DNA of 64,000 bases from Geobacteraceae bacterium (GCA_024281055.1 JAMXLF010000006.1:1-64000); one strand, 5' to 3'. Counted from the stretch's first letter, positions 13,786 through 63,774 are shown. Translations and numbers: made by a program. The notes: generated by a model from the sequence alone, not told the origin.

Positions 13786-16023
13786 ATGAAGCTTCCCAAC
13801 GATCAGTCTGCGTACAAGGCCCTCTCCTGGACCATCGGGGTCATCATCCTCGGGCTGGTGGCCGATGGCTTTTTCGAGATGCATGCAGGGGACAATGTGC
13901 TTCTCGAGACCCTCCATCTGGTCATGGTGCTCCTCCTCATGCTGGCCTTCTTACTGTTGCAACTCATCAGGAAAAAGAACCGGATAGTCGAGGAGACTGC
14001 CCATTCCCGGGCGATCCTGGCCATGCAGCGCGAGGTGGACACGAGCGAGCAGCGCTACCAGAGCCTCCTGGAATGCGCCGGCGACGCCATCTTCGTGATC
14101 GGCTTCGACAACGGCCGACTGGAGGAGGTAAATCGGGCCGCTACCGATCTCCTCGGTTACAGCAAGGAAGAGCTGGGCCTTGTGAGCGGTGGGGAGCTGA
14201 TCCCGGCGGAAGAGCAGAAGGCGTTTGCCGCCCTTGTCCTCCAGGTCAAGCGCTCCGGCCGGGTCGGCCCGCAGAGTATCACCTTCCGGCGCAAGGACGG
14301 CGGCACCTTTCTCGGAGAAGTGACGGCCCGTCTGATCGATCTCGGTGACCGCAACGTGGTCCAGGCGATCATCCGGGACATCACCCTGAAGCAGCAGGCG
14401 GAACAGGAGATCAGGCAGCGCAATCGGAAACTCTCCATCCTCAACAATATCATCGTCAGGGCGAGTCAGAACCTTGACCTTCCGGCAGTCCTCGACGTGA
14501 TCCTGCTGGAAACACTGGCCGGCTTCGGTGCCGTGGCTGGGACCATTCACCTCGTGAACGACGGCGGCCGCATCGGCCCGCTTGCCGCCGCCAGCAACAT
14601 CAAGGAGTGCTTCCTCACCGGGGCGCGGCCGGCAGAGCTCCCCGATGGCCGTCCCTGCCCCATGACGGAGCATCAGAGCTGCCAGGCCCGTGCGAATCTG
14701 ACGCAAAAAGAGTGCGGCATGACCGCTGTGGTGCGGGCCCAGGGCTGGTGCAGCGTGGTGGGGGTGCCGCTGTTCGCCAAGAAGCGGCTGCTCGGGGTCA
14801 TGCACATCATGGCCGCGAAGGAGCGGCAGTATAACGCCGAGGATATCAAGCTGTTCACCACCATGGGGAACCAGATCGGGATCGTCATCGAGCATGCCCG
14901 GATGTTTGCGGAGCTGAACTTGAAAACCGACGAGTTGCTCCGTTCCCACGGACTTCTGGAAAAGAGCAGCCACCAGCTGGCCCAGTCCCAGCAGCGGCTC
15001 AGGAAGAACCTGGCCCTCGTCGAGCGGGCCAATTCAGAACTGGAGCGGCTCAACCGGATGAAGAACAATTTCCTCGGCATGATCTCCCACGAATTCAAGA
15101 CCCCACTGACCGGCATCCTCAGCAGCGCGGAATTTCTCCTGGCCGATCGTTCCCGGGACAGAAGCGAAGAGGAGCGGCAGTTGCTGGAAACGGCCTACCA
15201 GTGCGGGACGAGACTCAACGGCATCGTCAACGATCTCCTGAAAGTGGCGCGACTCGAGGCAAATACGCCCGCGGTGGTGAAAACGACCCTCCATCTGGGG
15301 GAGCTCCTGGAGTTTGTGCGGGAACAGAGTGCGCCGCTCCTGGCGGAGCGACGGCAGCGGATCGTCTTTTCCGACCTGGGCGGGCTTCCGTACTTCAGCG
15401 CCGACCGGGAATCCCTCCTTGAAGTTTTTACCCGGCTTCTGGAAAACGCCATCAAGTTTACCCCCGATGGTGGAGAAATAGGCATAGTGGCGCAGGTGGC
15501 AGACCGAAGGCTCCTGGAAGACAAAAAGGAAATCCTCTGCCGCTTCAACCGCCGGTTCTACGAGCAGATGGGAAGTTCGTCCTTTCTCCAGGTCGAGGTG
15601 CGCGACAGCGGGGTCGGTATCGCGGTCGGCGAGCAGCTCCAGGTTTTCGACAAATTCTACGAAGTCGGCGAAATCCGCTTCCATTCCAGCGGCAAGTCAA
15701 AGTTCCAGGGGAAGGGGACCGGCTTGGGACTGACCATCGTCAAGGGAATGGTCGAAGCCCATGGCGGCATGGTGTGGGTGGAAAGCCCGTGGGAAAGCGA
15801 TGGGAACGCAGCGGGAAGCTCGTTTTTTCTCCTCCTCCCGCTGGAGGAAGACTCCCGTCAGCCGGCCTTCCCCTTCATGCAGGCAGAGCAGACCGTGGCG
15901 TCGCGCACCTTCGGAAACTACCAGGAAACCGTTACCAAGGTAATGGCGGGCATGGAGCCGACTCTCCGCAACGGCGGGGATACTGCCGGCGGCGCGGAGT
16001 GGGACGGGGAGGAGGCAGGGTGA
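13786..16023 (+). CDS. Membrane sensor histidine kinase with PAS and GAF domains
   Basis: The order in this 745-residue protein is: two membrane helices (about 11-29 and 37-61), a PAS domain (about 88-205), a GAF-like domain (about 225-385) and a helical linker. A HisKA domain follows with His435 in SHEFKTPL, then an ATPase domain with its N box (ENAIKFTPDGG), DSGVGI and GKGTGLGL. About 60 low-complexity residues follow the catalytic domain. The GAF region has several cysteines (for example KECF, CPMTE, SCQA, ECGM) that might bind a cofactor or metal; this is speculative. It starts at ATG behind GCGGAGG. No response regulator is adjacent, so its partner is elsewhere. Confidence 0.88.
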   Translation: MKLPNDQSAYKALSWTIGVIILGLVADGFFEMHAGDNVLLETLHLVMVLLLMLAFLLLQLIRKKNRIVEETAHSRAILAMQREVDTSEQRYQSLLECAGDAIFVIGFDNGRLEEVNRAATDLLGYSKEELGLVSGGELIPAEEQKAFAALVLQVKRSGRVGPQSITFRRKDGGTFLGEVTARLIDLGDRNVVQAIIRDITLKQQAEQEIRQRNRKLSILNNIIVRASQNLDLPAVLDVILLETLAGFGAVAGTIHLVNDGGRIGPLAAASNIKECFLTGARPAELPDGRPCPMTEHQSCQARANLTQKECGMTAVVRAQGWCSVVGVPLFAKKRLLGVMHIMAAKERQYNAEDIKLFTTMGNQIGIVIEHARMFAELNLKTDELLRSHGLLEKSSHQLAQSQQRLRKNLALVERANSELERLNRMKNNFLGMISHEFKTPLTGILSSAEFLLADRSRDRSEEERQLLETAYQCGTRLNGIVNDLLKVARLEANTPAVVKTTLHLGELLEFVREQSAPLLAERRQRIVFSDLGGLPYFSADRESLLEVFTRLLENAIKFTPDGGEIGIVAQVADRRLLEDKKEILCRFNRRFYEQMGSSSFLQVEVRDSGVGIAVGEQLQVFDKFYEVGEIRFHSSGKSKFQGKGTGLGLTIVKGMVEAHGGMVWVESPWESDGNAAGSSFFLLLPLEEDSRQPAFPFMQAEQTVASRTFGNYQETVTKVMAGMEPTLRNGGDTAGGAEWDGEEAG

Positions 16024-21523: not shown

Positions 21524-22705
21524 GTGCCGAGGGAGGGACTTCCTGCGGATGACCGTTGGCGAGCGAGACTCAGTATGCTGGACATGAACCAAAAACCGAA
21601 TATGGAGCTCGGCTGTGAGCAGCACAGCAAAACGGTCCTGATCGTTGACGATGAAGCGATCATCCGTGACCTTTGTGCCAAGGCCCTGAAGGGATACCGG
21701 GTGGTCGAGGCGTCCGACGGCGAAGAGGCGCTGCGGCTCTTCGAGCAGGGGGGGATCGACGTCATCCTCACCGACGTGATGATGCCCCGGATGGACGGCA
21801 TCGAGCTCCTCAAACGCCTGAAGGAGATCGAGCCGACCCTCGTGGTCATCGTCATGACCGGCTTTGCGGAAAAGGACATCATCCTCAACGCGCTCAAGGC
21901 AGATGCCGACGACTTCATCACCAAGCCGCTCAATCTTCTCCAGCTCAAGACAGCGGTCGACAATGCGCTGGACAAGCGGGCCCTCAAGGAGGAGCTCGCC
22001 AACCTGAAGAGCCTCGACCGCTTCAAGACCAATTTTCTCTCCCTCATCTCCCATAAGTTCCGTACTCCCATAACCACTATCTCGCTCTTCCTGCAGAACC
22101 TGGCCTCCGGGGTGTACGACCCCGAAGACGAGACCTTCAGGAAAAACCTGCGGCTGATCTACGAGGAGGCCGGTTATCTGGAGCGGCTCGTTGCCGAGCT
22201 CCTCGCCTTCAGCCAGGTCATGGACACCGGCCGTGGCCTCAAGCTCGAACCGTGCAAGCTGGACGAACTCCTCGTCCAACTCCTCCAGGAAGCGCGGGCG
22301 ATGTTCGGCAAGGAGGGGCTTGAAACGTCTCTTGCCCTGGAGCCACTCCCGCCGGTGCCGCTCGACCGGGAAAAGATCACCTTTGCCCTCCGGCAGGTCA
22401 TCGACAACGCCTGCAAGTTTTCCGGCGATAAAGGCTCGGTTGGCGTCTCTCTTGCCCGGGAGGGGAATGCCTGCCGGATCGTTGTCGCCGATGGCGGGAT
22501 CGGCATTGCCCGGGAGGATCTTCCCAAGATCTTCGAGAAATTTTATCAGGTGGATGCCGGCCGGACCGGTCAGATAAAGGGGTTCGGCCTCGGCCTCTTC
22601 TACGCCAAGGAATTCGTCCGTCTGCACGGCGGCACCATCGCCGTTGACAGCGAGCCGGGTAAAGGGACCAGGGTGACCATCACCCTGCCTCTGCCGGCGA
22701 GTTGA
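21524..22705 (+). CDS. Receiver-histidine kinase hybrid with altered H-box
   Basis: The 393-residue soluble protein has a receiver domain first (about 37-155, phospho-acceptor Asp84 in ILTDVMMPRMDG, Lys in FITKPL). A HisKA domain (His177) and an ATPase domain (DNACKFSGDKG, ADGGIGI, GFGLGLF) follow. The H-box reads SHKFRTPI: the residue after the histidine is Lys178 rather than the near-universal Glu or Asp, which normally assists phosphotransfer. Such REC-kinase proteins take phosphate from a membrane kinase and control their own kinase. GTG 21524 has a strong GGAGGGGAG site; ATG 21576 is an alternative. There is no DNA-binding domain. Confidence 0.85.
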   Translation: MPREGLPADDRWRARLSMLDMNQKPNMELGCEQHSKTVLIVDDEAIIRDLCAKALKGYRVVEASDGEEALRLFEQGGIDVILTDVMMPRMDGIELLKRLKEIEPTLVVIVMTGFAEKDIILNALKADADDFITKPLNLLQLKTAVDNALDKRALKEELANLKSLDRFKTNFLSLISHKFRTPITTISLFLQNLASGVYDPEDETFRKNLRLIYEEAGYLERLVAELLAFSQVMDTGRGLKLEPCKLDELLVQLLQEARAMFGKEGLETSLALEPLPPVPLDREKITFALRQVIDNACKFSGDKGSVGVSLAREGNACRIVVADGGIGIAREDLPKIFEKFYQVDAGRTGQIKGFGLGLFYAKEFVRLHGGTIAVDSEPGKGTRVTITLPLPAS

Positions 22706-56093: not shown

Positions 56094-56196
56094 TGAACTG
56101 AAGAGCGGAAGCGCTGAACGGAAGCCCCTTTTCGCCGGCCTTTCACATCATTGTTGCACGAGGCTGCCACAACGAATCGAGTCGAGGGACGCATGA
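56083..56196 (+). CDS. Possible 37-residue small protein bridging the HEAT gene and gpsA
   Basis: The frame begins at ATG 56083 with AGGAGG 9 nt upstream, overlapping the HEAT stop. It ends at TGA 56194, overlapping the gpsA ATG as ATGA. The peptide starts MSADELKSGSAERK and has an HHCC cluster. The double overlap and ribosome site argue for translation, but the size is at the limit and there is no family recognised. It may only be a coupling frame or chance. Confidence 0.3.
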   Translation: MSADELKSGSAERKPLFAGLSHHCCTRLPQRIESRDA

Positions 56197-57200
56197 TTGA
56201 GAATATCGGTGTTATCGGTGCCGGGAGCTGGGGAACGACCCTGGCCGATCTTTTGGCCAAGAAGGGGCACAGGGTGACCCTCTGGGCCTATGAGCCGGAA
56301 CTGGTGGCGGAGATGGCGAAAGAGCGGGTGAACAGCCTGTTTCTCCCCGGCATTCCCCTCTCGCCCCGCCTCGTATTCACCAATTCCCTCGCCGAGGCGG
56401 TGCGGGGCAAGGAGCTTATCCTGTTCGTCGCTCCTTCCCAGGTGACGCGCCGGGTGGTTGGTACGGTTCTCCCCGATCTTCCGGCGGATGCGGTCATTGT
56501 CAGCGCCTCCAAGGGGGTCGAGCTCGACACCCTCAAGACCATGTCCCAGGTCTTTGCCGAGCTGCTCCCGCCGGAGCTCTACGCCCGGTTCGCCGTGCTC
56601 TCCGGCCCCAGCTTCGCACGGGAAGTGGCCCTCGAGATGCCGACCGCGGTGGTGGCCGCGGCAGCGGACGCGGCCATCGCCGGGCGCGTGCAGCAGAGCT
56701 TCAATACCTCATTTTTCCGCCTTTACACCAACAATGACGTGATAGGTGTGGAGCTGGGGGGAGCCATCAAGAATGTCATCGCCATCGCAGCCGGCATTTC
56801 CGACGGACTCGGGTTCGGCCACAACACCCGCGCCGCCCTGATCACTCGTGGTCTCGCGGAGATGAGCCGGCTGGGAAGGGGCATGGGGGCGCGGTCCGAG
56901 ACCTTTGCCGGCCTGGCCGGGATGGGCGACCTGGTGCTTACCTGCACCGGAGACCTCTCCCGCAATCGCACGGTGGGGGTGAAGCTGGGCGAAGGCATGC
57001 GGCTGAAGGAGATCCTGGCGGAGATGCGGATGGTCGCCGAGGGGGTCAAGACCACCGAATCGGCCGTGAATCTCGCCCGCCGGCTGGCCATCGACATGCC
57101 CATCACGGAAAAGGTGTACGAGGTCCTCTATGAGGACAAGCCGGCCCGGGCGGCCGTTATCGAGCTCATGACCAGGGACCTGAAAGCGGAAGGCCGCTGA
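56193..57200 (+). CDS. gpsA: Glycerol-3-phosphate dehydrogenase [NAD(P)+]
   Basis: This 335-residue enzyme has the Rossmann loop GAGSWGTTLA, SGPSFAREVA, the catalytic-lysine region GGAIKNVIAIAAG and NTRAALITRG. It reduces dihydroxyacetone phosphate to sn-glycerol 3-phosphate for phospholipid synthesis. ATG 56193 has GAGGGA upstream; the frame extends back to 56151 without support. The next gene is separated by 96 nt. Confidence 0.97.
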   Translation: MIENIGVIGAGSWGTTLADLLAKKGHRVTLWAYEPELVAEMAKERVNSLFLPGIPLSPRLVFTNSLAEAVRGKELILFVAPSQVTRRVVGTVLPDLPADAVIVSASKGVELDTLKTMSQVFAELLPPELYARFAVLSGPSFAREVALEMPTAVVAAAADAAIAGRVQQSFNTSFFRLYTNNDVIGVELGGAIKNVIAIAAGISDGLGFGHNTRAALITRGLAEMSRLGRGMGARSETFAGLAGMGDLVLTCTGDLSRNRTVGVKLGEGMRLKEILAEMRMVAEGVKTTESAVNLARRLAIDMPITEKVYEVLYEDKPARAAVIELMTRDLKAEGR

Positions 57201-57296: not shown

Positions 57297-59561
57297 ATGC
57301 AACCAGGTCTGAGCATACGCACCAAGCTCCTTTTTTCCATCCTCCTCATCCTCGTCATTTCCTATTCCTTCCTCATCTACTTCAACGTCCGCAGTGTCTC
57401 CGCCTCCCTCGAGGAGAAGATCGGCAAAGAGCTGGAACAGGACCTCAATTACGTCAAGAGTCACTACCTGTTGCGGGCCAATCAGATAAATTACGTGATG
57501 CAGCAGACCGCCTCGGCGCCTTCCCTCCAGGATGTCGTGAGGCACCGGGATTCCGCCTGGCTCAAGAAGGCGCTCAAAAGATGGCAGCGGAACCTTCCCT
57601 CCGTCGAAGTCCTGACGGTGGTGGATGCGCGGCAACGGGTTCTCGCCAGGGTTAGCAGCTCCGCGACCGGCGATATCTTTGAAGTGGGCGGTGCCGTGGC
57701 CAAGGCGATGCACGAGAAACAGCCCGTCATCTCAACCGAGCTGATCCCCCTGGAACTCCTCTGCAGGGAGAACGCGGATTACTGCGTCCCCCTCGCCAGC
57801 GGCAAGGAGGCGATGATGGTGACGGTCGTCACGCCCGTTCTGGATGACAAGGGAGCGGTGCTGGGGGCGATCGTCTGCGGTGACGTGATCAACCGGGACC
57901 CGCAGATTCCCTTCAAGGTGCAGGAGATTTTCGGCAAAGAAGTGGCGGTGACTATCAACCAACGGCAAATCAGCATCGCCAGCACCTTTTCCGATCACGT
58001 CACGTTCCTGGCCACGGTCGCTCCGGAGATCCTGGCGAGGCTCAACAAGGGTCTCTCCTACCGGGGCGAGGCCCGTTTCGGCGACACGGCCTACAAGACC
58101 GCATTCGAGCCGATCGCCAACAGCAAAGGGGAGATCGTCGGCTCTCTGGCGGTAGCTCTCTCCATGGAGGACGTGAAAAAAATCCGTCACGACAGCCTGG
58201 AGAACATCCGCAATTCGGCGGTGGTTGCGATCATTCTGGCGTTTGCCATGGCCTGGTTCGTTGCCCGGAAGCTGACCGGACCGCTCCGTGAGCTGGCCCG
58301 CAGTGCGCAGCGAATCGAGACCGGCGACCTGAGCCAACGGGTTGCGGTGGCCACCTCGGACGAATTCGGCATGCTCGCCGATTCCTTCAACCGGATGGCC
58401 CGGGCCCTGGCGGAACGGGACCGGACCATCACGAAAAAGACCCAGGACCTGCAGGAATTGAATGAGCTCCTGGAGAAGAAGGTGGCGCTGCGGACCACTG
58501 AGCTGCGGCTGGAGATGGGGAGGCTGGAGGCCATTCTGACGAGCATGGCGGAAGGGGTCGTGGTTACCGACCGCGACAACCGCGTCATAGTCTGCAATCC
58601 GGCTGCCCTGAAGATCTTCGAGCTTGTCCCCCATCGGATCCTGCATCAGGCGGTCGACCAGGTGTGTGAGGTCGGCGGGTTCTGCCGGCTCGTGGACCTC
58701 GTCGGGGAAATCAAGGCAGGGGGCGATCTGACGACGGTGCGCGAGGAGGACCTGGCGGTAAAAGGGAAAAAGCTCAAGGTGAACCTTGCGCCGCTCCTCG
58801 ACGAAGGCGGGATGTTTGCCGGGGTGGTCATGTCGCTGCGTGACGTGACCGTCGAAGAGGAGGTGGACAGGATGAAGAACGAATTCATCTCCACCGTCTC
58901 CCATGAGTTGAAGACGCCGCTCACTTCCATCAAGGGGGCGCTGCAGTTCGTCCTCAACAAAGGGAAATGGCTGACCGCCACGGAGCGCGAACTCCTCTCG
59001 GTCTGCCTCCGCAACACCGATCGCCTCATCAGGTTGATCAGCGACATCCTCGATATCTCGAAAATCGAGGCCGGCCGGGTAGAGATGACCTTCGAGCCCC
59101 TGTCCGTCAATGAACTGGTGACCTATTCCATCGAGGAAATCAAGGGCTTTGCCCTGAGCCGCAACGTTTCCATCATCAACCGGGTCGACCCCGACCTCCC
59201 CCCTGTCTATGGCGACCACGACCGCCTCATGCAGGTCCTCACCAATCTCCTGTCCAATGCGGTCAAGTTCTCCCCCGAAGGGAAGATCATCACCGCTGCT
59301 GCCGAGTTGCAGGGTAACTATGTGGCCGTTTCGGTGGTAGACAATGGCCGGAGCATTCAGTTATCGGACCGCGACAAGCTGTTCAAGAAATTCCAGCGCC
59401 TTGAGAGTTCAGGGACCCCGGAAAATGGCGGCACCGGCCTCGGTCTGGCCATCTGCCGGGAGATCATCGAGCGGCACCACGGAAGAATCTATTACGAGCC
59501 GGGGCTGGCGGGAGGGAATATCTTTACCTTTACCGTCCCGGTTTTCGAGGAGACCAGATGA
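57297..59561 (+). CDS. Membrane sensor histidine kinase (Cache-HAMP-PAS)
   Basis: The 754-residue protein has a membrane helix (about 9-30) and a long extracytoplasmic sensor domain (about 31-300, Cache-like). A second helix follows at about 304-322, then HAMP (about 323-378), coiled coil, a PAS domain (about 400-515) and HisKA with His536 in SHELKTPLT. The ATPase domain has N box LLSNAVKFSPEG and GTGLGLAI. The G1 box reads DNGRSI at Asp682, so the second glycine of DxGxG is serine; nucleotide binding may be altered. It overlaps the next gene by ATGA, so they are coupled. Confidence 0.9.
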   Translation: MQPGLSIRTKLLFSILLILVISYSFLIYFNVRSVSASLEEKIGKELEQDLNYVKSHYLLRANQINYVMQQTASAPSLQDVVRHRDSAWLKKALKRWQRNLPSVEVLTVVDARQRVLARVSSSATGDIFEVGGAVAKAMHEKQPVISTELIPLELLCRENADYCVPLASGKEAMMVTVVTPVLDDKGAVLGAIVCGDVINRDPQIPFKVQEIFGKEVAVTINQRQISIASTFSDHVTFLATVAPEILARLNKGLSYRGEARFGDTAYKTAFEPIANSKGEIVGSLAVALSMEDVKKIRHDSLENIRNSAVVAIILAFAMAWFVARKLTGPLRELARSAQRIETGDLSQRVAVATSDEFGMLADSFNRMARALAERDRTITKKTQDLQELNELLEKKVALRTTELRLEMGRLEAILTSMAEGVVVTDRDNRVIVCNPAALKIFELVPHRILHQAVDQVCEVGGFCRLVDLVGEIKAGGDLTTVREEDLAVKGKKLKVNLAPLLDEGGMFAGVVMSLRDVTVEEEVDRMKNEFISTVSHELKTPLTSIKGALQFVLNKGKWLTATERELLSVCLRNTDRLIRLISDILDISKIEAGRVEMTFEPLSVNELVTYSIEEIKGFALSRNVSIINRVDPDLPPVYGDHDRLMQVLTNLLSNAVKFSPEGKIITAAAELQGNYVAVSVVDNGRSIQLSDRDKLFKKFQRLESSGTPENGGTGLGLAICREIIERHHGRIYYEPGLAGGNIFTFTVPVFEETR

Positions 59562-61099
59562 CCAGCAAGAAAATACTCATCGTTGACGACGAAGTCGATA
59601 TCGCATTGATTCTCAAGCTGCACCTGGAGGATGCCGGGTACAAGACCGTGCGGGCCAGGGATGGCCTGGAAGCACTGGAGCAGGTAGGCAGGGAGAGCTT
59701 CGACCTTGTCCTCCTCGACATCAAGATGCCGCGCATGAGCGGGATGGAGGTGCTGGGAAAGATCATGAGTGACCATCGTGACACGGCGGTGGTCATGATG
59801 ACCGCCCATGGCAGCGAGGATGTCGCGGTGGAAGCGATGAAAAGGGGGGCCATCGACTACATCGCCAAGCCGTTTTCCACCGACGATCTGCTCAAGCGGG
59901 TGGAGCGGGCCATCCAGTTCAACCGGACCCGCCAGGAAAACATCCGGCTCCAGCAGGAGGTGGCCGAAGAGCGGCAGAAGATGGCCACCATTCTCGAGGG
60001 GATGGCCGATCTCCTCATCGCCGTGGATGCAGAGGGGCGGATCATGACCTGTAACCGTATGGCGGCGGCTGTGCTCGGGGTTGACAGCAAGGAGGTCCTC
60101 GGGATGCCCGTGGAAGAGGTGCTGAAGGCCGACATCGCTCCGGAAGCCCTTCCCTGCCGGATTGCGCTGCGGACAGCTGCTCCGTGCCTCGATGTTGCCT
60201 ACACGATCCAGGCGCCCAAGGGAAACATTCCGGTCCTGTCAAGTGCCGCCCCCCTCGTGAACAGTGCCGGCGGCCTTCAGGGGAGCGTGGAGATCATTCG
60301 TGACATATCCACCCTGAAGGCCCTGGAGAAGGAACGGGAAGACTTTGTCAGCATGCTCTCCCACGACCTGAAGTCGCCGATCACCGCCATTGTCGGTTCC
60401 ATCGATCTGGTTCGCGACGGACGCCTGGGGCCGCTCAACGATGAGCAGCGGGAATACCTGGAATCGGCCCTCGAAAGCTGCACCGAGATGGTCGAGATGA
60501 TCGATACTCTCCTCGATGTCCACAAGTTCGAGGCGGGGAAGATGGTGCTCGCCTTCAAGGAGGAAGACCCGGAACTCCTCATCCAGCGCACCCTCAGCCG
60601 CTACCGCCCGGTGGCGCAGCGCGCCCGGATAAATCTCTATGCAACCGTCGTGGGCGAGCTCCCGGCGGTGCGGGTGGATCGGACGAAGTTTGGCCGGCTC
60701 CTCAGCAACCTTCTGTCCAACGCCTTCAAATTTACCCCGGAGGAAGGAGAGGTCGAGGTGCGGGGGGAAATAGTGGCGGCCGGAGTTGAGCTCGCCGGCC
60801 GGATCCCGGCACGAAATTATCCCGTCGTGGAGCTTCCCGACCGTGGCCGCTTCTTCCAGCTCATGGTCAGGGACAGCGGTGCGGGCATACCCGCGGATGC
60901 TCTGGCCGACATCTTCGATCGCTTTGTCCAGGCGAAGACGCGGCATACGGCAAAGGCCAGGGGCACCGGACTGGGGCTCGCCTTCTGTCGGAAAGTTATG
61001 GATGCCCATGGCGGCTACATCTGGGCGGAAAGTGTGGTGGGCCGGGGAAGCTCGTTCATTGCCCTGTTTCCCCTTGATGATGGCGCAACGTCTGACTGA
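59558..61099 (+). CDS. Receiver-PAS-histidine kinase hybrid
   Basis: The 513-residue soluble protein has a receiver domain (about 1-120, Asp54 in LVLLDIKMPRMSG, Lys in YIAKPFS) and a PAS domain (about 140-250). HisKA follows with His269 in SHDLKSPITA, then ATPase with SNAFKFTPEEGE, DSGAGI and GTGLGL. It is coupled to the preceding kinase by ATGA, so that kinase is the likely phosphate donor for Asp54. Like its neighbours it has no DNA-binding output. Its target is unknown. Confidence 0.9.
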   Translation: MTSKKILIVDDEVDIALILKLHLEDAGYKTVRARDGLEALEQVGRESFDLVLLDIKMPRMSGMEVLGKIMSDHRDTAVVMMTAHGSEDVAVEAMKRGAIDYIAKPFSTDDLLKRVERAIQFNRTRQENIRLQQEVAEERQKMATILEGMADLLIAVDAEGRIMTCNRMAAAVLGVDSKEVLGMPVEEVLKADIAPEALPCRIALRTAAPCLDVAYTIQAPKGNIPVLSSAAPLVNSAGGLQGSVEIIRDISTLKALEKEREDFVSMLSHDLKSPITAIVGSIDLVRDGRLGPLNDEQREYLESALESCTEMVEMIDTLLDVHKFEAGKMVLAFKEEDPELLIQRTLSRYRPVAQRARINLYATVVGELPAVRVDRTKFGRLLSNLLSNAFKFTPEEGEVEVRGEIVAAGVELAGRIPARNYPVVELPDRGRFFQLMVRDSGAGIPADALADIFDRFVQAKTRHTAKARGTGLGLAFCRKVMDAHGGYIWAESVVGRGSSFIALFPLDDGATSD

Positions 61100-61160
61100 A
61101 CCCCTGGGCAGATCGCATTCGACGCCACTGCGGTCAACCTGCGGGGAGGGAAATCCGAGG

Positions 61161-62804
61161 ATGCAAAAGCGGCTCCGGGTACTATTCATTGCTGATGCAG
61201 ACGCCGACACTGAGCAGCTTGTGCACGAGCTCGCCCATGACGGTTACGCGCTTTCCGCGGAACGGGTAGCCACGGCCGCTGATCTGGCTGCAGCCTGTGA
61301 CAGGCAGAGTTGGGACCTCATCCTTTCCGGCTGCGTGATGGAACAGCTTTCGGCCACGGCCGCCCTTGCGGTTGTGAAGGAGAAAAAACTCGATATCCCG
61401 TTCCTCGTCGTGTCGGAACGGCTGGAGGAAGAACTGGCGGTGTCCGCCATGAAGGCAGGAGCCCACGATTTCCTCCTGAAGGGGAACCTGTCCCGGCTGG
61501 CTCCCGCCGTCGAGCGGGAGTTGAGGGATGCTGGCGAGCGGAGCAACCGTCGCGGGATGCAGACCGCCATCCGGCGCGGCAAGATGGAGTGGGAGGCGGC
61601 TTTCGATGCGGTGTCGGATCTCATCATCCTGACGGACCTGACCGGCAGGATCATCCGCTGCAACAGGCGGGTGATCTCTTCCTTTAACTGCGACTACGGG
61701 GATGTACTGGGGAAACAGGTCGGAGCGTTGTTTTTCGGCGCACAGCCCGGCGACCCGCGGATATTTCAGCTCTCCCAGGACCCCACGGACGCCACGGCCG
61801 GGGAGGATATCCGCTTTCCCACCATTGAGGGGTGGTTCAACGTCACCAGCTACCCGATGCAGTTTGCGGGGAAGCCGTATGGTATGGTCCCGTATGGTAT
61901 GGTCCATATCATCAAGGACATCACCACGCGACGGCAAGCGGAGGAAGAGAAGAAGGCCAGCGAGCGGGAGCTCCAGGAAAACCTCCGGGAGGTGCAGCGG
62001 GCGAACATCGAGCTCGGCCGGCTCAATGACGCAAAAAACAGCTTTATCGGCATGGCCTCCCACGAACTGAAGACGCCGATCACCTCCATACTCGGCGGGG
62101 TGGATTTCCTGTTCAATTACAGCGGGCTCGTGATGAGCGAGGAGCAGCGGCGAATCTTTTCTTCCGTTTATGAGGGGGTACTCCAGCTCAAGGGGCTCAT
62201 TGCCGATCTCCTCTCCCTGTCCCGTCTTGAGACGGATGGTTCCCTCCAGAAAAGGCCGTGCAATCTCATGGCCCTGGCCGGCGAGGTCCGGGAAACCTTC
62301 GCCCTTCCCCTGTCGACACGCCAGATTCGGGTGAGCGTAGCGGGAGCGGAGATGCCGGTGCCGGTGGACGAAGGTTACTGCCGGCTGGTTGTCCGCAACC
62401 TCATCGAGAATGCCATCAAATTCACTCCTGACGGCGGCGTGGTCGCGGTGTCGGGGCGACTGGTAACCCGGAGAGAGGTGCGAGGCTGGGAGGCGGAACT
62501 TACTCCCTTCTATCCGGAACTTTCGCGGTGCCTGCATGACAGCGCCACCTTCTTCCGCCTCGACGTTTCCGATACCGGCATCGGCATCCCGCAGGACGAG
62601 CGGCAGCGGGTTTTTGAAAAATTCTACGGGGTAGGCGACCTGGACCACCACTCGTCGGGAAAGACCGAATTCATGGCGAGAGGCTCTGGCCTTGGCCTTG
62701 CCATCGTCAGGGGAATCATGGACGGCCATGGCGGGCTGGTCTGGAATGCGGCGAACCCGGCTGGCGCCGGGACAGTTTTCTCCCTCCTCTTTCCCATGGA
62801 GTAA
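61161..62804 (+). CDS. PAS histidine kinase with degenerate receiver domain
   Basis: The 547-residue protein begins with a receiver-like domain (about 1-125) that lacks the phospho-acceptor: the aspartate position is Gly57 in DLILSGCVM, and the acidic pocket reads IADAD. The KGNLSRL stretch keeps the late lysine. A PAS domain follows (about 145-260), then a HisKA domain with His301 in SHELKTPIT and an ATPase domain with DTGIGI and GSGLGLAI, both intact. A tandem PYGMV duplication lies at 239-248. ATG 61161 is preferred (GGGAGGG and GAGG upstream). It probably works with the two preceding kinases. Confidence 0.85.
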   Translation: MQKRLRVLFIADADADTEQLVHELAHDGYALSAERVATAADLAAACDRQSWDLILSGCVMEQLSATAALAVVKEKKLDIPFLVVSERLEEELAVSAMKAGAHDFLLKGNLSRLAPAVERELRDAGERSNRRGMQTAIRRGKMEWEAAFDAVSDLIILTDLTGRIIRCNRRVISSFNCDYGDVLGKQVGALFFGAQPGDPRIFQLSQDPTDATAGEDIRFPTIEGWFNVTSYPMQFAGKPYGMVPYGMVHIIKDITTRRQAEEEKKASERELQENLREVQRANIELGRLNDAKNSFIGMASHELKTPITSILGGVDFLFNYSGLVMSEEQRRIFSSVYEGVLQLKGLIADLLSLSRLETDGSLQKRPCNLMALAGEVRETFALPLSTRQIRVSVAGAEMPVPVDEGYCRLVVRNLIENAIKFTPDGGVVAVSGRLVTRREVRGWEAELTPFYPELSRCLHDSATFFRLDVSDTGIGIPQDERQRVFEKFYGVGDLDHHSSGKTEFMARGSGLGLAIVRGIMDGHGGLVWNAANPAGAGTVFSLLFPME

Positions 62805-62818
62805 CAAAGAAGAGAACG

Positions 62819-62839
62819 GTGAATAGTGAATGGTGAACG
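62819..62839 (+). repeat. Heptad-repeat run, GTGAATG family (single arm) at the ABC gene start
   Basis: GTGAATA 62819, GTGAATG 62826 and GTGAACG 62833 are three 7-bp tandem units with no paired second arm. The ATG of the ABC ATPase frame (62830) lies within the middle unit, so the repeat supplies the start codon and the first residues (MVNG). Confidence 0.6.
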
Positions 62840-63774
62840 GTACTAACAGCGCAGCGGCAATAGCCATGCATGGGATAACCAAGCTCTACGGCGAGCTGCG
62901 CGCGGTGGACGACTTTTCCCTCGACGTGGCGTCGGGTACCATTTTTGGGCTTCTCGGCCCCAACGGTGCCGGCAAGACCACCCTCATCCGGATTCTCACC
63001 ACGCTTCTGCGCCCTACCAGTGGCGCTGCCTTCGTAGAAGGCAGAAACGTGCTGACTGAGGGGAAGGAGGTGCGCAGGCTGATCGGCGTGGTTCCCCAGG
63101 AGAACAACCTCGACCGCTACCTCACCGCCCGGGAGAACCTGATCCTCCACGCAAGGATGCACGGCATGGCGCCGGTCGATTACAACCCCCGGATCGACGA
63201 ACTGTTCGAACTGATCGGGCTGGCCGGCCGACAGCACGACTTTCCCGACACCTTTTCCGGGGGGATGCAGCGGCGGCTCGTGGTGGCACGGGCACTCGTC
63301 CACAATCCGCGCGTTCTCTTCCTCGATGAGCCGACCACCGGCCTCGATCCCCAGTCCCGCCGCGCAGTCTGGGAGTACATCGCGTCGCTCAAGGCGAAGA
63401 TGACAATCTTCCTTACCACCCATTTCATGGACGAGGCGGATGTCCTCTGTGACCGGATCCTGATCATGGACCACGGGCGGGCGCTCGTCGACGGCACGGC
63501 GGCGGAGCTGAAAGAGCGGTTCGCCCATGCCCACATCTACGAGGTGGAGTTCCGGAGGAATGCCGACCGTTACGAGGCAATGCTGCGCAACCTTCCCTAT
63601 GTGGAGTCGGCGGAGCGCAGCGGCAACCTTTTCCGTCTGACGCTCGCCGGTGAGGAAGCGCTCAAGACGCTCATGGACGAGCTCGGCAGTGCGGACATCC
63701 GCAAGATCTGCCTCCGGGAGCCCTCCCTGGAGGATGTGTTTATCGCCCTGACGGGGCGAACGGTGCGGGACTGA
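62830..63774 (+). CDS. ABC-2 type exporter ATPase
   Basis: This 314-residue ATPase has Walker A GPNGAGKTT, signature FSGGMQRRL, Walker B VLFLDEPTTGLD and the H loop TTHFMDEA, followed by an extra C-terminal domain (about 225-314) typical of DrrA/NodI-like ABC-2 exporters. It pairs with the permease beginning at 63857. The substrate is not predictable. The start at 62830 lies in a heptad run; an internal ATG at 62866 (MHGITKLYG) is an alternative that begins exactly at the ABC domain. A heptad hairpin follows the stop. Confidence 0.9.
   Translation: MVNGTNSAAAIAMHGITKLYGELRAVDDFSLDVASGTIFGLLGPNGAGKTTLIRILTTLLRPTSGAAFVEGRNVLTEGKEVRRLIGVVPQENNLDRYLTARENLILHARMHGMAPVDYNPRIDELFELIGLAGRQHDFPDTFSGGMQRRLVVARALVHNPRVLFLDEPTTGLDPQSRRAVWEYIASLKAKMTIFLTTHFMDEADVLCDRILIMDHGRALVDGTAAELKERFAHAHIYEVEFRRNADRYEAMLRNLPYVESAERSGNLFRLTLAGEEALKTLMDELGSADIRKICLREPSLEDVFIALTGRTVRD

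Follow-up and report, generated by a model that had tools for sequence, protein, structure and literature searches.

Three histidine kinases encoded in a row, with no output-domain regulator adjacent to them, raise the question of whether such kinases signal to one another and where their signal goes. We analyzed this arrangement in a Geobacter relative, in a window of 64,000 nucleotides that holds a gyrA-gpsA block and comes from a 103-contig assembly (99.6% complete). Among matches bearing a name, the nearest were Geobacter or 'Deltaproteobacteria' metagenome bins. An initial annotation of the window had described the first kinase (HK1) as a membrane Cache-HAMP-PAS kinase overlapping a receiver-PAS kinase (HK2) by ATGA, followed by a third kinase (HK3) with a dead receiver. 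Intact open reading frames, Pfam domains and the neighbourhood bore out this description, including Gly57 at the phosphoacceptor position of HK3 and the lack of an adjacent output-domain regulator (Table 1). It was also right that none of the five HisKA kinases in the window (at 15058, 22025, 58872, 60335 and 62031) has an output domain, and each receiver encoded there forms part of a kinase. The HK3 start was taken as the ATG preceded by GGAGGG. Promoter and terminator scans gave no useful signal, and no literature on the locus was found under Geobacter locus tags.

Table 1. Features of the kinase locus, with positions counted in the 64,000-nt window; all three kinase ORFs are intact.
Feature	Position	Strand	Basis or remark
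gpsA	56193..57200	+	Upstream neighbour; 96 bp before HK1; synteny kept in nearly all of the 39 loci
HK1, membrane histidine kinase sCache_3-HAMP-PAS-HisKA-HATPase_c, 754 aa, His536	57297..59561	+	Pfam
HK1 G1 box D682-N-G-R-S686, without the second Gly of DxGxG	59340..59354	+	Ortholog alignment
ATGA start/stop overlap HK1/HK2	59558..59561	+	Sequence
HK2, REC-PAS-HisKA-HATPase_c, 513 aa, Asp54, His269	59558..61099	+	Pfam, conserved residues
HK2 Asp54 codon, phosphoacceptor	59717..59719	+	Asp in 38/38 orthologs
HK3, pseudo-REC-PAS-HisKA-HATPase_c, 547 aa, His301	61161..62804	+	Pfam; start at ATG 61161
HK3 Gly57 codon, replaces receiver Asp	61329..61331	+	Asp in 20/20 other orthologs
DrrA-type ABC transporter ATPase	62830..63774	+	25 bp after HK3; TIGR01188 313.9 bits, cut-off 312.45

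Kinases without a nearby regulator are ordinary in this genome: 40 of its 82 HisKA kinases lack a separate receiver protein at a distance of up to 3 kb, a second regulator-less kinase trio lies on another contig (C12:4234-9078), and 14 receivers are placed in front of a kinase. According to figures quoted in PMC3509222, orphans make up more than half of the two-component genes in Caulobacter and Myxococcus.

To assess whether the three kinases form a unit, the locus was read in 39 genomes with HK2 as bait, which is hence present throughout. The gene order in these relatives is gyrA-HEAT-gpsA-HK1-HK2-[extra kinase]-[HK3]-DrrA-type ABC ATPase, and this synteny reaches other families of the order, so the kinase block is non-random. 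HK1 is intact in 36 of the 39 genomes; it is absent from G002 and G098, and in G001 internal deletions have reduced it to 187 aa (L105:9915-10478, minus strand), with the DHp region gone. When the two genes were searched for independently, HK1 and HK2 were adjacent in all 44 family genomes holding HK1, with about 15 bp or less between match ends in nearly all of them, and HK1 was never found away from HK2. HK3, on the other hand, is present in 21 loci and missing from 18, and 21 of the 39 loci include an extra, fourth kinase from a family that numbers about 20 copies in the genome of the window. Because HK3 and the extra kinase come and go among loci, the conserved unit is HK1 plus HK2, with HK2 as its core, whereas the trio is the state of the host and is common to few others. 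Thus, the idea of a kinase-only locus with Asp54 of HK2 as its hub held (HK2 occurs in every locus and Asp54 in 38/38 orthologs), but the co-conservation of the trio that the initial annotation had proposed to check did not.

In none of the genomes examined does an output-domain regulator stand beside HK1 or HK2, and a free receiver, of a single domain, occurs in the row in only 1 of the 39 loci, that of G037. Gaps of 0.6-1.2 kb in some relatives were considered as hiding places for a regulator, and this was rejected: a free receiver is confined to G037, and the other gaps arose from estimates of where the extra kinase starts. The G037 receiver (L099:7926-8375) is flanked by HK2 and HK3, a place taken in relatives by the extra kinase, and is possibly the partner of that kinase. 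An apparent HK1-HK2 fusion in G033 was likewise discarded as Rosetta-stone evidence, since a 1-bp deletion relative to the near-identical G030 joins the two frames. Separately, HK2 of G029 (L209) is broken into two ORFs of 232 and 499 aa.

Like the invariant Asp54, His269 of HK2 is conserved in 39 of 39 orthologs. With its N-terminal, Asp-bearing receiver fused to DHp-CA domains, HK2 would by its sequence belong to the receiver-controlled histidine kinases. In an AlphaFold model (mean pLDDT 83, pTM 0.51, so that domain placement is uncertain), alpha5 of the receiver extends into a single helix (residues 108-149) ahead of the PAS domain, and a second long helix (251-286) runs into the DHp domain. 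HK2 is therefore predicted to have an alpha5-continuous signalling helix, although with an inserted PAS domain that LvrB does not have. LvrB was the only receiver-kinase among the 50 structural matches listed for the model and aligned over its whole length.

Previous studies of the co-operonic Leptospira kinases LvrA and LvrB demonstrated that LvrA phosphorylates Asp56 of LvrB (PMC5863495). Phosphorylation of the LvrB receiver, which an unbroken helix leaves, releases the catalytic domains; the output of the pair, LvrC, could not be told from the two genes themselves and was identified only later (PMC13269768). The likeness to HK1-HK2 lies in two kinases without DNA-binding domains, the second bearing an N-terminal receiver, whose Asp phosphorylation by LvrA switches LvrB autokinase on; for HK1-HK2, an operon is suggested by the ATGA overlap and adjacency. 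The two systems differ in that LvrA is a soluble hybrid kinase and HK1 a Cache kinase of the membrane, HK2 carries a PAS domain that LvrB lacks, and the present locus, unlike Lvr, has extra kinases in the row. HK1 scored 141.7 bits against the LvrA family NF047465 (cut-off 1200) and HK3 93.5 bits against the LvrB family NF047466 (cut-off 500), both below curated membership, and the LvrB model was not among the 25 NCBIfam matches listed for HK2. Hence HK1 and HK2 may work like the Lvr kinases, by analogy, but are not members of their families.

We favor, with modest confidence, a model in which the locus is a kinase-to-kinase relay of the LvrA-LvrB kind, centered on HK2 and with an unlinked regulator as output. 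HK1, sensing through its Cache domain at the membrane, would phosphorylate or dephosphorylate Asp54 of HK2; the state of Asp54, together with the signal of the HK2 PAS domain, would set how active HK2 is as an autokinase, by way of the long helix from receiver alpha5 to the PAS and DHp domains; and His269 would pass phosphate to a response regulator whose gene lies elsewhere. HK3 and the relatives' fourth kinase would be optional side inputs. This reading is favored because HK1 and HK2 are adjacent and overlapping across the order, Asp54 and His269 of HK2 are invariant and no output regulator is local, and because the long helix and fold match tie HK2 to LvrB, for which transfer from LvrA is established. 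Against it stand the retention of Asp54 without HK1, the missing G1 glycine of HK1 described below, and the resemblance of the HK2 receiver to NtrC-type receivers, a class not usually paired with WalK/PhoR-like kinases, of which HK1 is one. Furthermore, the adjacency of HK1 and HK2 could in part reflect conserved synteny, or inertia, near gyrA.

The genomes that have lost HK1 bear on an alternative, which we regard as possible but doubtful, that HK2 is an independent receiver-kinase and that the kinases have no more in common than an operon, each with its own unlinked regulator and with no mutual transfer. Asp54 is intact in G001, G002 and G098, where HK1 is lost or decayed; therefore, HK1 is not the sole possible donor, and other donors exist at least there. 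The DHp helix-1 sequences also differ among HK1, HK2 and HK3, and 119 of the 142 receivers of the host genome occur outside HisKA kinases, which would offer plentiful partners. However, HK1 is never separated from HK2 in the family, the genes overlap, and the HK2 receiver needs a donor, for which the overlapping kinase HK1 is the parsimonious choice.

The relay model also has to accommodate a feature of HK1 that was not in the initial annotation and that we consider the part of the locus most worth testing at the bench. Alignment with solved kinases (VicK-like 4i5s and HK853) set the position of the G1 motif (DxGxG), and its second glycine proved to be missing from HK1 in 33 of 36 orthologs, three of which have lost both glycines; it is retained by the deep orthologs of G120, G132 and G145. 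The same glycine is kept in all 38 HK2 and all 21 HK3 sequences. HK1 may on this sequence evidence be a weak kinase, and the state of its G1 motif leaves room for a mainly phosphatase or allosteric role. We consider it unlikely that HK1 is a catalytically altered kinase, a phosphatase or an allosteric partner that acts on HK2 mainly by dephosphorylating Asp54 or by contact, and less as phosphodonor. Its G1 glycine was lost even though, of all partitions, its kinase core evolves most slowly (total tree length of 3.4, versus 6.0 and 6.3 for the HK2 and HK3 cores), and HK1 retains the His, both N-box Asn, the G1 Asp and its G2 region; yet these same remaining N-box, G1 Asp and G2 elements mean that ATP binding may be normal. 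The order-wide version of this idea, in which HK1 with its lasting G1 change would gate the HK2 receiver mainly by acting as a phosphatase or an allosteric partner and would not be the phosphodonor, appears quite unlikely.

Kinases acting on kinases are known elsewhere. In the Sphingomonas general stress response, the kinase KipF acts on the receiver of a second kinase, PakF, by phosphorylation, as named in PMC5863495, and the downstream regulator is given in PMC5898713 as PhyR. The proposed action of HK1 on HK2 would be of the same kind, the PhyR output being theirs. In the GacS multikinase network with RetS, kinases dephosphorylate receivers and inhibit the autophosphorylation of other kinases (PMC5992135). 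Such kinase-on-kinase action may hold for HK1 and HK3 as well. Unlike the HK1-HK2 locus, GacS and RetS are encoded by separate genes, with C-terminal receivers and GacA as output.

HK3, with its dead receiver, had been read as a non-phosphorylatable paralog and a possible scaffold or decoy. HK2 and HK3 are only 28% identical; they are not close paralogs, and the idea of a recent duplication was rejected. The HK3 receiver is a weak match to Response_reg (Pfam PF00072, 36 bits) in which the Asp is replaced by Gly57, the acidic pair ED is changed to AD, and MP to ME; the Asp is present in all 20 other HK3 orthologs that have a receiver. As a receiver-family domain without the phosphoacceptor Asp and one acidic residue, it falls by sequence under the definition of aspartate-less or pseudo-receivers (ALR/PsR; PMC12632262, PMC4395418). 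Unlike a conserved PsR family, however, it reflects a loss in one lineage accompanied by faster change: conservation as a pseudo-receiver, which lies outside the formal definition but would be a mark of selected function, was not found across the HK3 orthologs.

Rates of change were compared on a tree fixed from the remaining domains, with the window branch set against 16 other taxa. The HK3 receiver had a relative rate of 2.3 on the window branch with free branch lengths, and the best multiplier was 2.5 (2dlnL 22.1), whereas the largest 2dlnL was 8.7 for the other 16 taxa at this domain and 3.9 for the window's other domains; the HK3 kinase core and PAS domain evolve at a near-normal rate on that branch. 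Such a pattern is expected if the receiver has lost its function and the kinase is kept. The window's genus is sampled by one genome, and adaptive change of the receiver would also lengthen the branch. Since the Asp is kept in orthologs and only this domain is accelerated, the comparison points to relaxed constraint rather than to a conserved scaffold or decoy, and the sequences indicate that the dead receiver is a loss private to the host lineage. A selected scaffold or decoy that titrates the kinases of the trio is thus very improbable: the reading frame is intact and Pfam still recognizes the receiver, but the domain is accelerated on the window branch only, and 18 loci do without HK3 altogether. 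The tempting decoy reading is thereby corrected to a loss in one lineage. In the favored model, the receiver of host HK3 would be decaying and its receiver control lost while the kinase half is retained, and HK3 probably acts as a kinase under PAS control, with no receiver input. Host HK3 also has no GAF domain, which is found in most orthologs (mostly 716-768 aa, versus 547 aa). Loss of GAF as the cause of receiver decay was not supported, as HK3 of G005 is also without that region and yet keeps the Asp.

Finally, the output might lie next door. The ABC ATPase gene follows the last kinase in 32 of the 39 genomes, with a 4-bp overlap in several, and the kinases could serve the DrrA-type exporter, by regulating it or coming under the control of its flux, with the transporter operon as output. 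We judge this improbable: the ABC proteins contain no receiver or regulator domain, and the block may be ordinary synteny, given the heme synthesis genes downstream. In the host, the ATPase is followed by an ABC-2 permease, an AhbD-like radical SAM protein and HemE. The AhbD-like heme b synthase gene (L031:4792-5763, on contig C6 just past the window) scored 409 bits against a cut-off of 500; it and HemE belong to one gene row with the kinases and the ABC transporter.

Altogether, the HK1-HK2 pair is real, conserved and mechanistically precedented, with optional extra kinases. It represents a deeply conserved, uncharacterised kinase-to-kinase pair near the replication genes of Geobacter relatives and a second setting, outside Leptospira, in which to study receiver-controlled kinases, for which the genomes without HK1 offer natural controls and the G001 remnant a test case.

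Several other two-component genes were noted in the host genome. A kinase of 376 aa at 21575-22705 of the window, between alaS and an amino-acid-kinase gene, has the REC-DHp-CA domain plan of LvrB, without PAS; the LvrB model was not among its best 25 NCBIfam matches listed. Outside the window, contig C12 carries, from about 4 to 65 kb, about 15 HisKA kinases and at least 15 receivers in about 65 kb, and about a dozen of these kinases form one expanded family. The nearest receiver protein to HK3 with an output-like domain is a REC-PilZ protein (L031:8986-9699, minus strand; C6:68985-69698), which is encoded about 6 kb downstream on the opposite strand.
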